35,476 nt of DNA from a virus, in the IMG/VR virus record IMGVR_UViG_3300022074_000165, positions 1 to 35,476 of that record; one strand, 5' to 3'. Position 1 is the first letter of the stretch. Each line of letters opens with the position of its first letter. The notes under the pieces were generated by a model. The model worked only from the letters and a program-made list of their open reading frames with translations, made no database searches and was not told the DNA's origin. A program made the translations under genes and the position numbers. Positions 5,840 to 17,294 of this stretch are shown piece after piece.

Positions 5840-6022
5840 ATGGCTTATAAGAAATTTCCAAACGTCAAACTTGGAACGTGTGAGCATTGTGGAGCTACAA
5901 TCAATAGGCATGACTCCTTTGTTGTAAAAGAAATAATGTTTCCCAAAATAAAAAAGATGTATTTATGTCACAATGCTAGAGAACAAGAAGATTGTTTTAC
6001 TAGACACGAAAAGATCGAATAG
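5840..6022 (+). CDS. small zinc-finger-like protein
   Basis: 60 aa. C-x2-C (GTCEHCGA, about 14-17) is followed by a later Cys pair (LCHNAREQEDC), consistent with one zinc site. Basic N-terminal half. Last gene of the rightward late row before the attP/integrase control region. No Shine-Dalgarno is obvious. Function unknown. Confidence 0.55.
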   Translation: MAYKKFPNVKLGTCEHCGATINRHDSFVVKEIMFPKIKKMYLCHNAREQEDCFTRHEKIE

Positions 6023-6044
6023 ATCAAAAACAATTACCACAAAG

Positions 6045-6114: not shown

Positions 6115-6139
6115 TGGCGGTCCCTACGGGATTCGAACC
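6115..6139 (-). other. attP core: 3' end of a tRNA gene
   Basis: Read on the minus strand, these 25 nt are the 3' end of a tRNA. They begin GGTTCGAATCC (T-loop TTCGAAT flanked by stem bases), continue through the T-stem 3' strand, and end with an acceptor strand AGGGACC, discriminator G and encoded CCA. The 5' half of the tRNA is missing: upstream bases are plain AT-rich sequence, so this is not a complete tRNA gene. A tRNA 3' end beside a tyrosine integrase is the classic phage attachment site, where integration rebuilds the host tRNA. The tRNA identity cannot be set from this fragment. Confidence 0.85.
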
Positions 6140-6147
6140 TTTTATTT

Positions 6148-6162
6148 TGATCAAAAAGATCA
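6148..6162. promoter_or_regulatory. operator-like palindrome next to attP
   Basis: TGATC-aaaaa-GATCA, a perfect 5+5 inverted repeat with a 5-nt centre, extended by one T/A pair on each side. The same architecture occurs at the repressor/Cro region (12305-12319) and at 16898-16912. It may be a repressor operator. Because it lies 9 nt from the tRNA-identity core, it could also be an integrase or excisionase arm site. Confidence 0.55.
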
Positions 6163-6319: not shown

Positions 6320-6334
6320 TGATCTTTAAAATCA
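6320..6334. promoter_or_regulatory. operator-like palindrome at integrase leader
   Basis: TGATC-tttaa-AATCA, 9 of 10 arm matches to TGATC-N5-GATCA. It lies just after the predicted transcription start and 19 nt before the integrase ATG. Confidence 0.45.
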
Positions 6335-6353
6335 TATTAGGGATAATATATTA

Positions 6354-7583
6354 ATGGCATATACAACATTTCAAGAATACAAAAACAAACACAACAAAAC
6401 AGCATACAAAGTAATAACACCATACGTTAATGATGAAGGTAAGAAATCATCATTTGTTACAAAATTTGATCCCCACTCACCTACTATGCCAATGGATAAA
6501 CAAGAGGCAAAAGTAGCTGCAATGTCTTTGGCAGCTCACATTAATAAAGTTGGGCCTAAAGTTTATTTTGATTTAATGCCTTTGTGTGAGGCAGTTGAAA
6601 CTATTTATAGACCTGAACGTAGAGAACAGCATAAAACAAGTGAACCTAGAAGTTTGACAGAAAAAGAAATGCAGATGGGTTTTTATAATTGTGGAGGCAT
6701 ATACAAAAAGGGCCACAAAAAAGAAGGCCAGACTTATGGATGGATGATACGAACAAGTTTATGGAAACAGCCTATTAAAACTATCAACACTACATCTTGC
6801 ACAAACATGGTAAGAGAACTGAAACAATTAGGTTGCAAGGATAGTAAAATTACCAGTGTTGTTGATACATTAAAACAAGTTATAAAGATATGTGTGGCAT
6901 CTGATAAATGCACATTGCAAACCAATCAAATTATTAGTTTTAAAAGAAAGAAAACAAAGAAAGATATAGCAGTACAAATACCAGCTAAAAAAGATATTGA
7001 TCTTATGATCAGTAAAGCATCACCTTTGTATTCTATTATGTTTTTGTTCATATCATTGACTGGTATGAGGTGGCAAGAGATGTCAGCATTTACCTGGAAC
7101 AAGATAAGTTGGAACCGTGATATGTTAATTATAGATCACGCAATAAAAGATGGGTATTGCACAAAAGGAACTAAGACGGCAGCTGGTGAACGTGATGTAC
7201 CCTTAGTTAAAATATTAAAAGATGCTTTGTTAAAATGGAAAGAACACCCATTGTCTGACAAAACAAATGGTGATGATAGTTTTATATTTGGTGATGGAAA
7301 TGGCAACTACATTCCACATCATAAAACTAATGTGTATTACAAAAGATTAAAAGAAAAATGCAATTTAGATTGGCATGGAGGCATACATTCGTTCAGACAT
7401 TACTATGCAAGTTTACTGTTTGACTGGCATCGTAAACAAGCAATATCATTGAAGGACATTACATACTACATTGGACATACAGATATTAATTTTACCATGA
7501 AAAAGTATGCTAAATGTTTTAATGATGAAGATAAATGGTTTGAACGAGTTGACAAAATAAATGCTTGTTTAGACGAGTTTTAG
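6354..7583 (+). CDS. int: tyrosine site-specific integrase
   Basis: 409 aa phage integrase that recombines attP with a host tRNA site. The C-terminal catalytic domain shows R239 (SLTGMRWQE), a Lys in the beta-hairpin (K274, KGTKTAAGERDVPL), H345-x2-R348 (HSFRHYY), H375 (YIGHTDI) and the nucleophile Y385 (TMKKYAK). A SAM-like core-binding domain spans about 118-205. The N-terminal 60 residues (YKVITPYVNDEGKK) look like an arm-binding domain. The attP core lies 215 nt upstream and a clear promoter 44 nt upstream. Its stop overlaps tail-to-tail with the last gene of the leftward operon, whose MerR-like member may be the excisionase. Confidence 0.95.
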   Translation: MAYTTFQEYKNKHNKTAYKVITPYVNDEGKKSSFVTKFDPHSPTMPMDKQEAKVAAMSLAAHINKVGPKVYFDLMPLCEAVETIYRPERREQHKTSEPRSLTEKEMQMGFYNCGGIYKKGHKKEGQTYGWMIRTSLWKQPIKTINTTSCTNMVRELKQLGCKDSKITSVVDTLKQVIKICVASDKCTLQTNQIISFKRKKTKKDIAVQIPAKKDIDLMISKASPLYSIMFLFISLTGMRWQEMSAFTWNKISWNRDMLIIDHAIKDGYCTKGTKTAAGERDVPLVKILKDALLKWKEHPLSDKTNGDDSFIFGDGNGNYIPHHKTNVYYKRLKEKCNLDWHGGIHSFRHYYASLLFDWHRKQAISLKDITYYIGHTDINFTMKKYAKCFNDEDKWFERVDKINACLDEF

Positions 7584-10354: not shown

Positions 10355-11284
10355 CTATAAGTTGTGTGCTTGTTTAAATAATTCTCTGGCCTTGTGTAAA
10401 TTTTCTTCCCCTATATCTGCATAAAAACTTTCCCAATCAGGATCGTGAAAACTTAACAATCGTAATGGATCACCCTTGCTGTTTAATATATGTCTATCCC
10501 TTAATCGTGCCTGGTTTTTGAGGTATTCAAAGTGATCATTCATGGCATCTACTGTTAGTAAATCACAGTTTGATGAATCAAATATCTTGTGTTCTTTGTC
10601 ATTAACATAAAACAAGAATGGCCTCTTGTTAGTGCATTTCCAGTAGTATGACGTTTGTCTACAATGATTGATAAGTGGTGCGTCAATCTTTGTTGTGCTG
10701 ACACTTCTCGTGCCATCTTTTTTTGGTTTCAATAATCGTGGTAATCTTAATTTTTGCTCCCCAAACTTTAAATCATCTTCACCATCTATTCGGCCCAACA
10801 TACCTACAAAAGTTAAAGGCAAAGTAACATTGCGTTCTGCTATAACTGGTGTGGTAAACCTTATTGATTTCCAAGCTGCAATAGAATTTTTTAAATAATC
10901 AGCTGCTAAACCTTTAAATGCTGCATACTTTTCTTTATCTTTTTCATCAGATGGTTTGTAAGCATTCATTTCTTGATCTAACATTTCAAATGCCTGATCT
11001 TCAGATATTTTTTTGTTGTTTACTTTTTGGCTATTAAAAGTCCATATTACATCACAGAATACAAGCTGACAAATGTAACCAATTGTTGTGCCAAAAAACA
11101 TATTGATATTAGTTTTGTTGCGTCTGCGTGTCTCTTGATCAAAAGCTCCGTATAGTAAAGCCCATAACCACATAGGTTGTAATAGTTGGGTAGGTGAGTA
11201 ATGGTTTATATCTAATTCTATAAACTCTTGAGGTATGATACCTAGCTCTTCGTCTAATGATTTTGGTTTTTGTTGTTCAACCAT
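10355..11284 (-). CDS. PD-(D/E)XK exonuclease (Cas4/RecB-like)
   Basis: 309 aa from ATG 11284 (a TTG 36 nt upstream is possible but lies in the promoter area). Nuclease signature: D167 in GMLGRIDG, E176-x-K178 (FGEQKLR), then Q210-x3-Y214 (RQTSYYW), the RecB/Cas4-type core with its QxxxY motif. The family provides 5'-3' end resection. Downstream come the annealing and SSB-like genes, 8 nt and 4 nt away, so it heads a recombination operon like lambda exo/bet. The usual first-motif His is not obvious. Operator-like palindrome 52 nt upstream. Confidence 0.75.
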   Translation of the reverse strand: MVEQQKPKSLDEELGIIPQEFIELDINHYSPTQLLQPMWLWALLYGAFDQETRRRNKTNINMFFGTTIGYICQLVFCDVIWTFNSQKVNNKKISEDQAFEMLDQEMNAYKPSDEKDKEKYAAFKGLAADYLKNSIAAWKSIRFTTPVIAERNVTLPLTFVGMLGRIDGEDDLKFGEQKLRLPRLLKPKKDGTRSVSTTKIDAPLINHCRQTSYYWKCTNKRPFLFYVNDKEHKIFDSSNCDLLTVDAMNDHFEYLKNQARLRDRHILNSKGDPLRLLSFHDPDWESFYADIGEENLHKARELFKQAHNL

Positions 11285-11296
11285 GCAAATCACTAG

Positions 11297-11320
11297 ATTA
11301 TATTTGCTAAAACATGTCAA
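11297..11320 (-). promoter_or_regulatory. possible promoter of leftward early operon
   Basis: On the minus strand a perfect TATAAT (plus 11297-11302) lies 12 nt before the exonuclease ATG, so the transcript would be nearly leaderless. A TTGACA (plus 11315-11320) lies 12 nt upstream of it, too close for a normal -35; no other good -35 is seen. An operator-like palindrome at 11336-11350 is adjacent. The -10 is plausible; the whole promoter is uncertain. Confidence 0.35.
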
Positions 11321-11335
11321 TATAAAAGATCATAT

Positions 11336-11350
11336 TGATCTTCTAGATCG
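11336..11350. promoter_or_regulatory. operator-like palindrome upstream of exonuclease operon
   Basis: TGATC-ttcta-GATCG, 9 of 10 arm matches to TGATC-N5-GATCA. It lies directly upstream of the putative promoter of the leftward early operon, where a repressor could block it. Confidence 0.5.
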
Positions 11351-11432: not shown

Positions 11433-11447
11433 TGATCTATAAAATCA
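11433..11447. promoter_or_regulatory. operator-like palindrome between repressor end and early operon
   Basis: TGATC-tataa-AATCA, 9 of 10 arm matches. It sits 97 nt from the copy at 11336-11350, in the non-coding gap 11285-11506. This very AT-rich gap otherwise holds only the inverted repeat at 11446-11460. Confidence 0.4.
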
Positions 11448-11460
11448 CTAATTTTTAGTG
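11446..11460. repeat. inverted repeat CACTAA/TTAGTG
   Basis: A perfect 6-bp inverted repeat with a TTT centre, 47 nt after the repressor stop in the leftward direction. In that direction it is followed by ATTTTATAG, only four T, so it would be at best a weak terminator for the repressor transcript. AT-rich arms make chance occurrence possible. Confidence 0.35.
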
Positions 11461-11506
11461 ATAAAAAATGATGATATTGTTTTTTGTTAGTAAAAAAAAA
11501 TGATTA

Positions 11507-12187
11507 TTAATCAATAAATTTAGGCCTTGAAATGACTATATCTAAATGATGAAAATGATTTATGTCTTTTTTTGCAAAGTCAACACATCTTGTATTGTAT
11601 ATATCTGACAAATAAACCATTGGCTCTGTACTCATAACTGGAGTGCTAACACCAGTTAAAAATCCACAATACCAATCTTTATTTTTTTTTAATTGAATCA
11701 ATATTGGGTGAGACATAGAATCTATCAAAGTATCATTGTTTAAAATTTGTTTTTGTTTAGAAAATAAATGAATAGCTTGTACCTGGTTGCCAAAATATGT
11801 GGTTTGTGGGTGAGTTTGATCAGCCCAAACAGCATAATGACTGTCTGTAAACTCGGTTGGACAATAAAACTTAACGATAGATGATTTAAATATTACTCTC
11901 ATATCATGAGTTGTGCATGGCATAGCATCAATTGTCTTAATTCTATTTTCTGGTATTTGAAAAAAATCAGTCCAATTAAAATTATAATTTGCAGCAATGT
12001 CTTGTGCTAATTCTATTGGCATTTTCTTTTTACCTTGCAAAATCCTTAACATGTGTTCCCTTGTGTACCATGGTTTTCTGCCTTGTGAATATGTGACTAA
12101 TATTTCTTCAATATCTATGTTTCTTGATTCAAGGGTTGGTTTCATTAACCATCCATCTCCTTTATGTATCGTTACGGCATTTTCCAT
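11507..12187 (-). CDS. lysogeny repressor candidate (XRE-like HTH)
   Basis: 226 aa from ATG 12187; AAAGGAG lies about 12 nt upstream (a TTG at 12220 would add 11 residues). Residues 42-76 (TREHMLRILQGKKKMPIELAQDIAANYNFNWTDFF) have the feel of the second half of an XRE/Cro HTH with the usual 'G-x-K-x-x-P-x-x-x-A-x-x-I-A' run. The C-terminal part (PILIQLKKNKDWYCGFLTGV ... LDIVISRP) is beta-rich like phage repressor C-domains, but I see no credible S24 Ser-Lys dyad. It is divergent from a Cro-like gene with operator-like sites between, which supports a CI role. RecA-driven self-cleavage is not supported. Confidence 0.68.
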   Translation of the reverse strand: MENAVTIHKGDGWLMKPTLESRNIDIEEILVTYSQGRKPWYTREHMLRILQGKKKMPIELAQDIAANYNFNWTDFFQIPENRIKTIDAMPCTTHDMRVIFKSSIVKFYCPTEFTDSHYAVWADQTHPQTTYFGNQVQAIHLFSKQKQILNNDTLIDSMSHPILIQLKKNKDWYCGFLTGVSTPVMSTEPMVYLSDIYNTRCVDFAKKDINHFHHLDIVISRPKFID

Positions 12188-12220
12188 AATATACTTTATC
12201 TCCTTTGTTTCATATCCCAA

Positions 12221-12235
12221 AAACCTTTATGGTCA
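12221..12235. promoter_or_regulatory. degenerate operator in repressor leader
   Basis: AAACC-tttat-GGTCA, 8 of 10 arm matches to TGACC-N5-GGTCA. It lies at or just downstream of the predicted repressor transcription start (about 12237), 36 nt from the next site, so it could serve autoregulation. The weakest of the set. Confidence 0.3.
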
Positions 12236-12243
12236 TAAAAGAT

Positions 12244-12272
12244 ATTTAACACGATATGATCTTTCATGTCAA
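12244..12272 (-). promoter_or_regulatory. repressor promoter
   Basis: On the minus strand a perfect -35 TTGACA (plus 12267-12272), a 17-nt spacer and -10 TTAAAT (plus 12244-12249, 4 of 6). The start is expected near 12237, giving a leader of about 50 nt that contains the AAAGGAG of the repressor gene. An operator-like site overlaps the -35 and spacer. Confidence 0.6.
12257..12271. promoter_or_regulatory. operator-like site in repressor promoter
   Basis: TGATC-tttca-TGTCA: one perfect half-site and one 3-of-5 half-site. It covers the -35 and spacer of the repressor promoter, so occupancy would shut off or modulate repressor synthesis. Confidence 0.4.
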
Positions 12273-12301
12273 ATATAAATAAATTATAACCATCTTATAA
12301 G

Positions 12302-12330
12302 TTGTGATCTGAGAGATCAATAAGTATAAG
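12302..12330 (+). promoter_or_regulatory. Cro/early rightward promoter, leaderless
   Basis: -35 TTGTGA (12302-12307, 4 of 6), a 17-nt spacer and -10 TATAAG (12325-12330, 5 of 6). The expected start, about 7 nt after the -10, falls on the ATG at 12337, and no Shine-Dalgarno precedes that ATG. The transcript is therefore predicted to be leaderless. The perfect operator at 12305-12319 lies between and over the two boxes. Confidence 0.6.
12305..12319. promoter_or_regulatory. perfect operator in Cro promoter
   Basis: TGATC-tgaga-GATCA, a perfect 15-bp palindrome overlapping the -35 and filling most of the spacer of the Cro promoter. One of three perfect copies in the window, all in control regions. 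Its place in a divergent repressor/Cro region makes it the best operator candidate. Confidence 0.65.
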
Positions 12331-12336
12331 TAAACA

Positions 12337-12558
12337 ATGTACTTATCGAAGTGGATTAATCTAACAAACACTAGCAAAAAAGGACTAGCAGAAAAGCTAG
12401 GAAACATAACAGCCACTTCGGTTACTCGATGGACCAAATCAAAACGATTTCCAAAACCACAAGAGCTTATGCGTATTGAAGAAATAACTGAGGGTCTTGT
12501 CACTGCAAACGACTTTGTTAAACAATGGAAAGAGCAGAATGGCCAAAAAGAAATTTAA
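12337..12558 (+). CDS. Cro/YdaS-like HTH protein
   Basis: 73 aa. An HTH of the Cro/YdaS type: SKKGLAEKLGNITATSVTRWTKSKRFPKPQELMRIEEITEGLVTANDFV, with the usual order 'A-x-x-L-G ... S/T-V-x-x-W ... P-x-x-x-x-x-x-I-E ... G-x-V'. First gene of the rightward early operon, divergent from the repressor, so it probably acts as the lytic-side antirepressor at the shared operators. No Shine-Dalgarno; the promoter predicts a leaderless mRNA. It overlaps the next gene by 20 nt. Confidence 0.82.
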   Translation: MYLSKWINLTNTSKKGLAEKLGNITATSVTRWTKSKRFPKPQELMRIEEITEGLVTANDFVKQWKEQNGQKEI

Positions 12559-12829: not shown

Positions 12830-13681
12830 ATGGTAAAATTAAAAGTTTTAGATTTATTTTCAGGCATTGGTGGTTTTGCACTAGGGCTAGAAAGCACAGG
12901 TTATTTCAAGACAGTACAATTTGTCGAGAACGAAAAGTGGTGTCAACAAATATTAGCCAAGAACTTTCTTGGAGTGCCAATACATGACGACATCAAAACC
13001 TACAACACATACCAAGGCGTTGAAGCAGATGTCGTTGTTGGTGGATTCCCTTGTCAGCCCTTCTCGGTTGCTGGCAAAGGAAAAGCCATACAAGACGACA
13101 GACATCTGTGGCCAGAAATGTTTAGAGTTATTAGACAAACAAAACCTACCTGGGTCATTGGGGAAAATGTCAGAAATATTGTTAGCATCTCAGACGGCAT
13201 GGTACTCGAACAAGTGTACCTTGACTTGGAAAGCCAAGGTTACGAAGTCCAATCGTTTATTATACCAGCTTCATCAGTCAACGCACCGCACCAAAGATAT
13301 AGAACATGGATCATTGGATATAGAACCTCCGACAGAGGGCAATCTATGGAGTACCCCAACAGCTTTCGATCACACAAACATAAAAAATCCGAGGAAGAAA
13401 TCAACAGGAGGACAGAAACCTCCGTTGCAACAACAAGTACAGATGTGGCCGACACCGACAGCAAGGGATTACAAAGACAACGGGAAATCACCAGCAGAAC
13501 TTATGAGGAACTCAAAAACTTTGGCAACCCATGCTGGTGGAACACTGAACCCGATGTGGGTAGAATGGTTGATGGGCTACCCAATAGGGTGGACAGACTT
13601 AAGGGATTAGGCAATGCAATCGTACCACAAATTGCATATCAAATTGGAATGGCAATAAAAGAGGCAGAAAATGATAGCTGA
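12830..13681 (+). CDS. C5-cytosine DNA methyltransferase
   Basis: 283 aa, S-adenosylmethionine-dependent, methylating cytosine in DNA, probably to evade restriction. Motif I DLFSGIGGFALGL (8-20), motif IV with catalytic Cys GFPCQPFS (C75), motif VI ENV (112-114), motif VIII QRYR (155-158) and motif X VDRLKGLGNAIVPQIAY (254-270). The variable segment between VIII and X is short. Oddity: nearly all of the gene from 12969 to 13610 is also open in the +1 frame, and the +1 reading of the 3' half is itself a recognisable methyltransferase-type tail. Overlaps the next gene by 11 nt. Confidence 0.93.
   Translation: MVKLKVLDLFSGIGGFALGLESTGYFKTVQFVENEKWCQQILAKNFLGVPIHDDIKTYNTYQGVEADVVVGGFPCQPFSVAGKGKAIQDDRHLWPEMFRVIRQTKPTWVIGENVRNIVSISDGMVLEQVYLDLESQGYEVQSFIIPASSVNAPHQRYRTWIIGYRTSDRGQSMEYPNSFRSHKHKKSEEEINRRTETSVATTSTDVADTDSKGLQRQREITSRTYEELKNFGNPCWWNTEPDVGRMVDGLPNRVDRLKGLGNAIVPQIAYQIGMAIKEAENDS
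12969..13610 (+). other. second open frame inside the C5 methyltransferase gene
   Basis: The +1 frame stays open for 213 codons. Its last 110 residues include LWSTPTAFDH, QMWPTPTARDYKDNGKSP and GGTLNPMWVEWLMGYPIGWTDL, signatures I know from the C-terminal part of other phage C5 methyltransferases. The first half of this frame carries nothing recognisable. I do not call it an independent gene: no Shine-Dalgarno, and it lies wholly inside a gene with complete motifs. It may record a frame switch in the ancestry, or be reached by +1 frameshifting. Confidence 0.5.
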
Positions 13682-16897: not shown

Positions 16898-16912
16898 TGA
16901 TCTCATAGATCA
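16898..16912. promoter_or_regulatory. perfect operator in 16.9-kb divergent control region
   Basis: TGATC-tcata-GATCA, a perfect palindrome. Its centre is 18 bp from that of the next site. It lies just downstream of the predicted leftward promoter, upstream of the leftward accessory operon. Confidence 0.6.
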
Positions 16913-16914
16913 TA

Positions 16915-16944
16915 TTGACCACTATGGTCATAATATAATATATG
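16915..16944 (+). promoter_or_regulatory. possible rightward promoter for packaging operon
   Basis: -35 TTGACC (16915-16920, 5 of 6), an 18-nt spacer and -10 TATATG (16939-16944, 4 of 6). It would start near 16951, about 90 nt before the gene at 17040. The operator at 16916-16930 covers the -35 and spacer. It could be a repressed promoter for the packaging/virion region. Confidence 0.4.
16916..16930. promoter_or_regulatory. variant operator, perfect palindrome
   Basis: TGACC-actat-GGTCA, the same 5-5-5 architecture with one matched change in each arm, so symmetry is kept. It overlaps both predicted divergent promoters. Confidence 0.55.
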
Positions 16945-16948: not shown

Positions 16949-17039
16949 TACCATAATAAAAAAAAATATTGGACATTTTGCCTCGAATAAGCTTTAAATC
17001 TTGATATAATTGCAAATCATTGCGTTGATTTAATAAATC

Positions 17040-17294
17040 ATGGTAGGAAGGCCCCAATCTAAAATTTTTTGTGAGAGCCTCACAAGATCATCAAACTATA
17101 CTAGACAATGTAGGGCCAAGGGCTACTTGATGAAGTCTGGCCATTATCGTTGCAAAAATCATGGCGGATATAGTGATTGGAACGCAAAAACTAATGAAGG
17201 CAAGTTTAAGGCCCTTAGAAATTTAAGATCATTAAAACATTTATCAGATGAAAAAATTAGAACTAAATACATCATTGAAAGAGAAAATCCTTGA
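17040..17294 (+). CDS. HGG-type small zinc-binding protein
   Basis: 84 aa. CRAKGYLMKSGHYRCKNHGGYSDWNAKTNEGKFKALRNLRSLK: Cys-x14-Cys-x2-His with the HGG and 'KT-x-EGK-x-x-x-x-NL' motif seen in small phage and plasmid proteins. It probably holds a zinc and binds nucleic acid. Directly before the terminase small subunit, overlapping it by 47 nt, so a packaging or regulatory role is plausible. No Shine-Dalgarno. Confidence 0.7.
   Translation: MVGRPQSKIFCESLTRSSNYTRQCRAKGYLMKSGHYRCKNHGGYSDWNAKTNEGKFKALRNLRSLKHLSDEKIRTKYIIERENP

Follow-up and report, generated by a model that had tools for sequence, protein, structure and literature searches.

The divergent regulator locus of IMG/VR record IMGVR_UViG_3300022074_000165 raises two linked questions: whether its repressor-like and Cro-like genes form an immunity switch, and whether the cro transcript could start at its own initiation codon and thus be leaderless. 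We analyzed the whole 35,476-nucleotide stretch of this virus (positions 1 to 35,476 of the record), referred to here as the window, in which the two regulator genes lie 149 bp apart (Table 1).

SAR11 are the commonest ocean bacteria, and their phages are among the most abundant marine viruses. The HTVC010P type is the second most abundant known pelagiphage group (PMC12753301). The portal/connector of the window is ~57–63% identical over 89–100% to those of pelagiphages including HTVC010P and Skadi, a comparison that places its structural genes with the HTVC010P type. The window also encodes a tyrosine integrase, and upstream of it a piece of a tRNA 3'-end (TGGCGGTCCCTACGGGATTCGAACC, read on the plus strand, 6116–6139) is a candidate attP core. 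The presence of both an integrase and a candidate attachment site is what would be expected of a temperate HTVC010P-like phage, with integration itself a prediction. From this gene content, we infer lysogeny and temperate growth, and the window most likely holds the immunity region of a temperate, integrase-bearing relative of the HTVC010P-like pelagiphages.

Relatives of the Cro-like protein were grouped into classes A–H. Classes A and B (Cro 97–100% identical) carry the repressor, as do class E (Cro 67%, repressor 62% identical) and class F (Cro 51–53%, repressor 50% identical); class D (Cro ~67%) has one member with and one without a repressor, and classes G and H contain more distant Cro relatives. 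In class C, Cro is 92–93% identical, with a recognition helix predicted to be the same as that of the window, and no repressor gene is found between the leftward operon and cro. The class C contigs L087 and L088 retain an integrase 95% identical to that of the window but are without the repressor gene, the operators described below, and the tRNA piece; these phages are possibly lysogeny-defective or using another repressor. The tRNA motif is present in the repressor-carrying classes A, B, and E and was not found in class C or in the repressor-less class D contigs. Finally, the virulent phages HTVC034P, HTVC203P, and Skadi share with the window the gene order of nuclease, divergent Cro-like gene, and next gene.

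The rightward regulator is Cro-like. Its Pfam matches to HTH_3 (E = 8e-4) and YdaS (E = 3e-4) both fall below the cut-off, its PHROG match is phrog_35, transcriptional repressor (E = 1e-5), and its AlphaFold model (pLDDT 91) comprises five helices, with structural matches to P22 c2 (Z 8.5) and a prophage YdaS (Z 8.5, 22% identity). The leftward regulator itself has no significant Pfam or PHROG match. Three of the six members of its family show HTH_3 (best E = 2.7e-4), and residues 13–77 are modeled as a five-helix HTH, with ten-residue blocks at pLDDT 58–86, mostly 68–86. Its C-terminus (residues 148–218) gives structural matches to Sm/Hfq barrels (57 residues, Z 8.5, rmsd 1.5) and, with lower scores, to the WYL proteins DriD, CapW, and BrxR. 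Confidence in the model as a whole is low (pLDDT 55.5; Foldseek E values of 0.01 at best), and we therefore treat this likeness as a lead only, one that weakly favors a barrel of the Sm/Hfq or WYL type over an S24 peptidase. None of the six family members has a Pfam match to the S24 peptidase, and Foldseek/VIA gave no S24 match for the repressor, which we do not take as an exclusion. For the repressor, tblastn against 50,697 phage records found no match, and a sequence comparison with solved structures gave nothing useful.

Table 1. Coordinates of genes and predicted regulatory elements in the window
Feature	Position	Strand	Sequence, location, or basis
Cro-like XRE/HTH regulator (lytic side), 73 aa	12337–12558	+	ATG at 12337; Pfam, PHROG, AlphaFold, structure matches
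CI-like repressor, 226 aa	11507–12187	-	N-terminal five-helix HTH, C-terminal five-strand barrel (modeled); Pfam of relatives, AlphaFold
Predicted repressor promoter	12244–12272	-	TTGACA (12272–12267)/17 nt/TTAAAT (12249–12244); direct reading, matrix scan
Predicted Cro promoter	12302–12330	+	TTGTGA (12302–12307)/17 nt/TATAAG (12325–12330); direct reading, matrix scan
Putative operator at Cro promoter	12305–12319	.	TGATCTGAGAGATCA, perfect palindrome; overlaps Cro -35/spacer; in class B, arms conserved and center changed
Putative operator at repressor promoter	12257–12271	.	TGATCTTTCATGTCA; overlaps repressor -35/spacer
Putative operator upstream of leftward recombination operon	11336–11350	.	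TGATCTTCTAGATCG; gene at 10355–11290
Weaker putative operator	11318–11332		Neighbor of the 11336–11350 site
Further putative operator	11433–11447	.	TGATCTATAAAATCA; between repressor gene and leftward operon
Hairpin with T-rich tail, possible terminator	11444–11462	-	ATCACTAAAAATTAGTGAT; 3' of repressor gene; folding energy -5.8 kcal/mol; arms conserved in relatives
Tyrosine integrase	6354–7583	+	Phage_integrase, E = 8.8e-14; PHROG integrase, E = 3e-32
Putative operator at integrase	6320–6334	.	TGATCTTTAAAATCA; directly downstream of predicted integrase promoter (TTGACC/17/TATATT)
Further putative operators upstream of integrase	6148–6162 and 6012–6026
Putative operator, terminase side	16898–16912	.	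TGATCTCATAGATCA, perfect; between leftward small-gene cluster and rightward terminase-side genes
Degenerate putative operator, terminase side	17026–17040

Direct reading of the intergenic region confirms the back-to-back promoters with 17-nt spacers, TTGACA/TTAAAT leftward and TTGTGA/TATAAG rightward, at the positions given in a preliminary description of this DNA. The operator-like sites that it placed over the -35 and spacer of each promoter are likewise present, as is the divergent repressor/Cro arrangement: the Cro-like protein is of the XRE type, the repressor is XRE-like, and the operators at the two promoters match each other. Neither -10 box fully fits the consensus, with TATAAG holding five and TTAAAT four of its six bases. 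In a scan with a position-weight matrix of E. coli values, the repressor promoter was the top minus-strand match, equaled by 9% of shuffles; the repressor transcript would start near 12237 and carry a leader of ~50 nt with AAAGGAG at 12206–12200. The Cro promoter is ordinary as a match anywhere in the region (41% of shuffles), but a match this good at one fixed position is rare (~0.4%). Promoter score alone was dropped as evidence for the Cro promoter because this pair is no better than chance somewhere within 149 AT-rich bases.

The sites over the two promoters are 15-bp versions of a palindrome, TGATCTnnnAGATCA, with a TGATCT half-site and a gap of 3, so that judged by sequence the two promoters have an operator in common. 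We started from these two palindromes and searched the whole genome, allowing at most two mismatches. The window contains 14 matches versus 2.2 expected, a number reached in 0 of 100 shuffles, and of these, nine lie entirely or in part within non-coding DNA, which makes up 11.5% of the sequence (p = 4e-6). The two sites at the switch noted in the preliminary description therefore stand as part of a larger set that extends to the integrase, the leftward operon, and the terminase-side regions. An unbiased palindrome scan (4096 6-mer half-sites, each with eight gaps of 0–7) was confined to non-coding DNA because whole-genome de novo scans were swamped by coding trinucleotide bias. TGATCT with gap 3 is top-ranked in each of three repressor-carrying genomes, the window and two relatives (6 versus 0.13, 5 versus 0.08, and 9 versus 0.25), and is not first in two CI-less class C genomes. 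The same type of scan gave no equally clear operator in the E- and F-class relatives, whose CI has diverged. In CI-carrying relatives, the sites are largely conserved at orthologous positions.

It could be argued that these palindromes are sites for a host regulator or a GATC methylation feature instead of phage immunity operators, given the GATC in the operator core and a DNA methyltransferase gene in the window. We regard this as very improbable: the constraint on the operator covers 12 positions, not 4, most of the sites lie close to promoters, and the regulatory regions of the repressor-less sister phages do not have them.

Which of the two phage proteins would bind these sites is best judged from class C, in which the operator between the integrase promoter and its gene is gone, though the TTGACC/17/TATATT promoter itself is conserved. 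We assign the operator to the repressor because class C retains the same predicted Cro recognition helix yet has lost both the repressor gene and the sites in its regulatory regions. This co-variation supports CI only, not Cro, as the binder. Binding chiefly by Cro, or jointly with CI as happens in lambda, would agree with the placement of the TGATCTnnnAGATCA sites, which lie where lambda Cro and CI share operators, and with a loosely similar element noted on visual inspection close to the class D–F Cro promoters; given the class C genomes, we judge it rather unlikely. Thus, TGATCTnnnAGATCA is most likely the operator of the CI-like repressor, and the operator set most likely represents a phage-wide immunity system. 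Another palindrome, TGACCnnnnnGGTCA, was considered as a Cro operator and rejected, with 13 matches versus 8.3 expected (not significant).

We then consider the cro transcript. The gene has an ATG start and no Shine–Dalgarno (SD) sequence, the two sequence features looked for in a leaderless mRNA. As the preliminary description had stated, an SD is missing: anti-SD pairing reaches only -1.0 kcal/mol for cro, compared to -8.7 kcal/mol for the repressor gene. Of 40 gene starts that we inspected in the window, about half have energies of about -4 to -13 kcal/mol, indicating that the phage does use SD sequences. No cro gene in classes A–H has an SD (-1.0 or weaker). On these pairing energies, translation of Cro is not SD-led, wherever transcription starts. 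The virulent phages are unlike the window in this respect, with cro genes that have a leader and a strong SD (-4.7 to -8.7 in HTVC034P, Skadi-4, and HTVC203P), and they also have no repressor or integrase match.

The -10 box of the Cro promoter is followed by TAAACA and then the ATG. As the promoter ends 6 nt before the ATG, transcription would most likely begin on the AUG or one base before it; a C at 12335 precedes A12336, so the start could equally be A12336 (1-nt leader) or A12337 (none). Classes A, B, and C all have the TATAA box 6 nt before the ATG, even though class C otherwise differs in its upstream DNA. The TTGT of the -35 is also conserved in these three classes, and in each the Cro promoter is the top-scoring promoter of the last 100 nt. 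Class E has TATAGT 6 nt and class F GATACT 8 nt from the ATG. Class D has TAATAT 7 nt before the ATG with no convincing -35, while a site 29 nt upstream scores better, and in this class alone a promoter at leaderless distance is not significant (p 0.36–0.57). For classes A–F, the combined p for a promoter at this distance is ~1e-4, or 9e-4 without the near-duplicate class B, in a test chosen after the alignment had been viewed and applied to classes that share ancestry.

Transcription of cro might instead start further upstream, from a plus-strand TGGTCA/19/TATGAT pair at 12230–12260 or another distal site. The SD-less leader could then reach ~70 nt, and its unstructured AT-rich sequence would drive translation. 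This pair scores slightly higher than the proximal promoter (7.8 versus 7.1), its sequence and spacing are conserved in class B, and the best score in class D likewise lies further upstream. However, the pair is lost in class C, where the proximal TATAA survives; its 19-nt spacer is poor, and its TATGAT overlaps the repressor-side operator. We consider a distal start a credible but unlikely alternative, and a leaderless cro mRNA (0–1 nt) quite probable on the conserved position of the proximal promoter. For this phage group, start-site data were found neither in the infection transcriptome paper on HTVC022P/HTVC027P nor in a literature search on leaderless mRNAs in SAR11. Alphaproteobacteria often have leaderless mRNAs, with 375 in Caulobacter (PMC4117421) and 171 in Sinorhizobium (PMC3616915), so a leaderless gene would be unsurprising if the host is SAR11, as the phage relatives suggest.

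The repressor/Cro pair is well supported as a real switch of a known kind. As in the lambda CI/Cro system (OR, PRM/PR), operators lie over both divergent promoters, and further operators lie beyond the repressor gene at the leftward operon, like OL. In lambda, the leaderless mRNA is that of the repressor, transcribed from PRM, as the preliminary description correctly held. The window shows the predicted reverse, a repressor gene with an SD-bearing leader and a leaderless cro, and further differs from lambda in having operators also at the integrase and terminase-side regions and no S24 peptidase detected in its repressor. The novelty implied by this contrast, however, does not hold. Leaderless cro is already known by experiment from PY54, a Yersinia telomere phage in which cI and cro each have only one mRNA, shown to be leaderless by RACE, and in which, as in the window, the promoter lies immediately upstream of the cro start codon (PMC4488713). 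PY54 differs from the window in also having a leaderless cI, in the single operator bound by its Cro, and in its linear plasmid prophage.

Two other systems share parts of this organization. The CP-933P locus also pairs divergent XRE regulators, PaaR2 and the YdaS-type, Cro-like partner YdaS, which is among the closest structures to the Cro of the window; there, unlike the prediction for the window, it is the repressor PaaR2 whose transcript is leaderless by RACE (PMC8630535), not that of the Cro-like partner. The operators and stoperators of mycobacteriophage L5 resemble the window in that repressor sites are scattered genome-wide beyond the switch. In L5, the sites lack symmetry and for the most part lie outside promoters (PMC6550527), whereas those of the window are palindromic and mostly promoter-proximal.

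In the model that we favor, TGATCTnnnAGATCA would be the binding site of the CI-like repressor at both switch promoters, by the leftward recombination operon, by the integrase, and next to the terminase-side genes, and this binding would silence the phage in the lysogen. We infer that the Cro-like protein would counter CI from the divergent promoter. Its transcript would probably begin at the AUG or 1 nt ahead of it and be translated as a leaderless, non-SD mRNA, whereas a leader and SD would be present on the mRNA of the repressor. As a whole, this explanation of the locus, including both the leaderless cro and the CI operators, appears fairly likely from the sequences compared. A more far-reaching proposal is improbable: that the repressor represents a family, as yet undescribed, of XRE plus Sm/WYL-like proteins, induced by a nucleic-acid ligand (for example, single-stranded DNA, as in WYL regulators) without RecA-stimulated self-cleavage, and acting through dispersed palindromic operators that appear and vanish phage-wide with its gene, opposite a leaderless cro on the lytic side.

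With the operator, repressor, Cro, integrase, and candidate attP, a lysogeny switch among HTVC010P-group relatives has concrete components that can be tested. The more useful result is a set of defined operators whose presence tracks that of the repressor among integrase-bearing HTVC010P-type relatives. The series of relatives, from those with a repressor, through those with an integrase and no repressor, to virulent phages, would allow the gain and loss of lysogeny to be studied, and the SD-led cro of virulent relatives compared to the SD-less, probably leaderless cro of integrase-bearing ones offers a test of leader loss.

Several minor observations were made alongside. The window encodes a C5 cytosine methyltransferase (12830–13681); at the same hotspot, contigs L004 and L010 carry a different methyltransferase-like gene and L003, L005, and L011 none. 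In class C (L087, around 5319), the integrase -10 (TATATT) lies 8 nt before the ATG, and integrase may therefore be leaderless there; in the window, the leader is longer and includes a putative operator. The leftward nuclease gene has TATAAT ~12 nt before its ATG (11290–11302), perhaps suggesting that short or absent leaders are general for early promoters here. On the terminase side, a second perfect palindrome, TGACCACTATGGTCA, occurs at 16916–16930, 18 bp from the operator at 16898, and in class B, TGACCTTTTAGGTCA adjoins the operator that matches this site.
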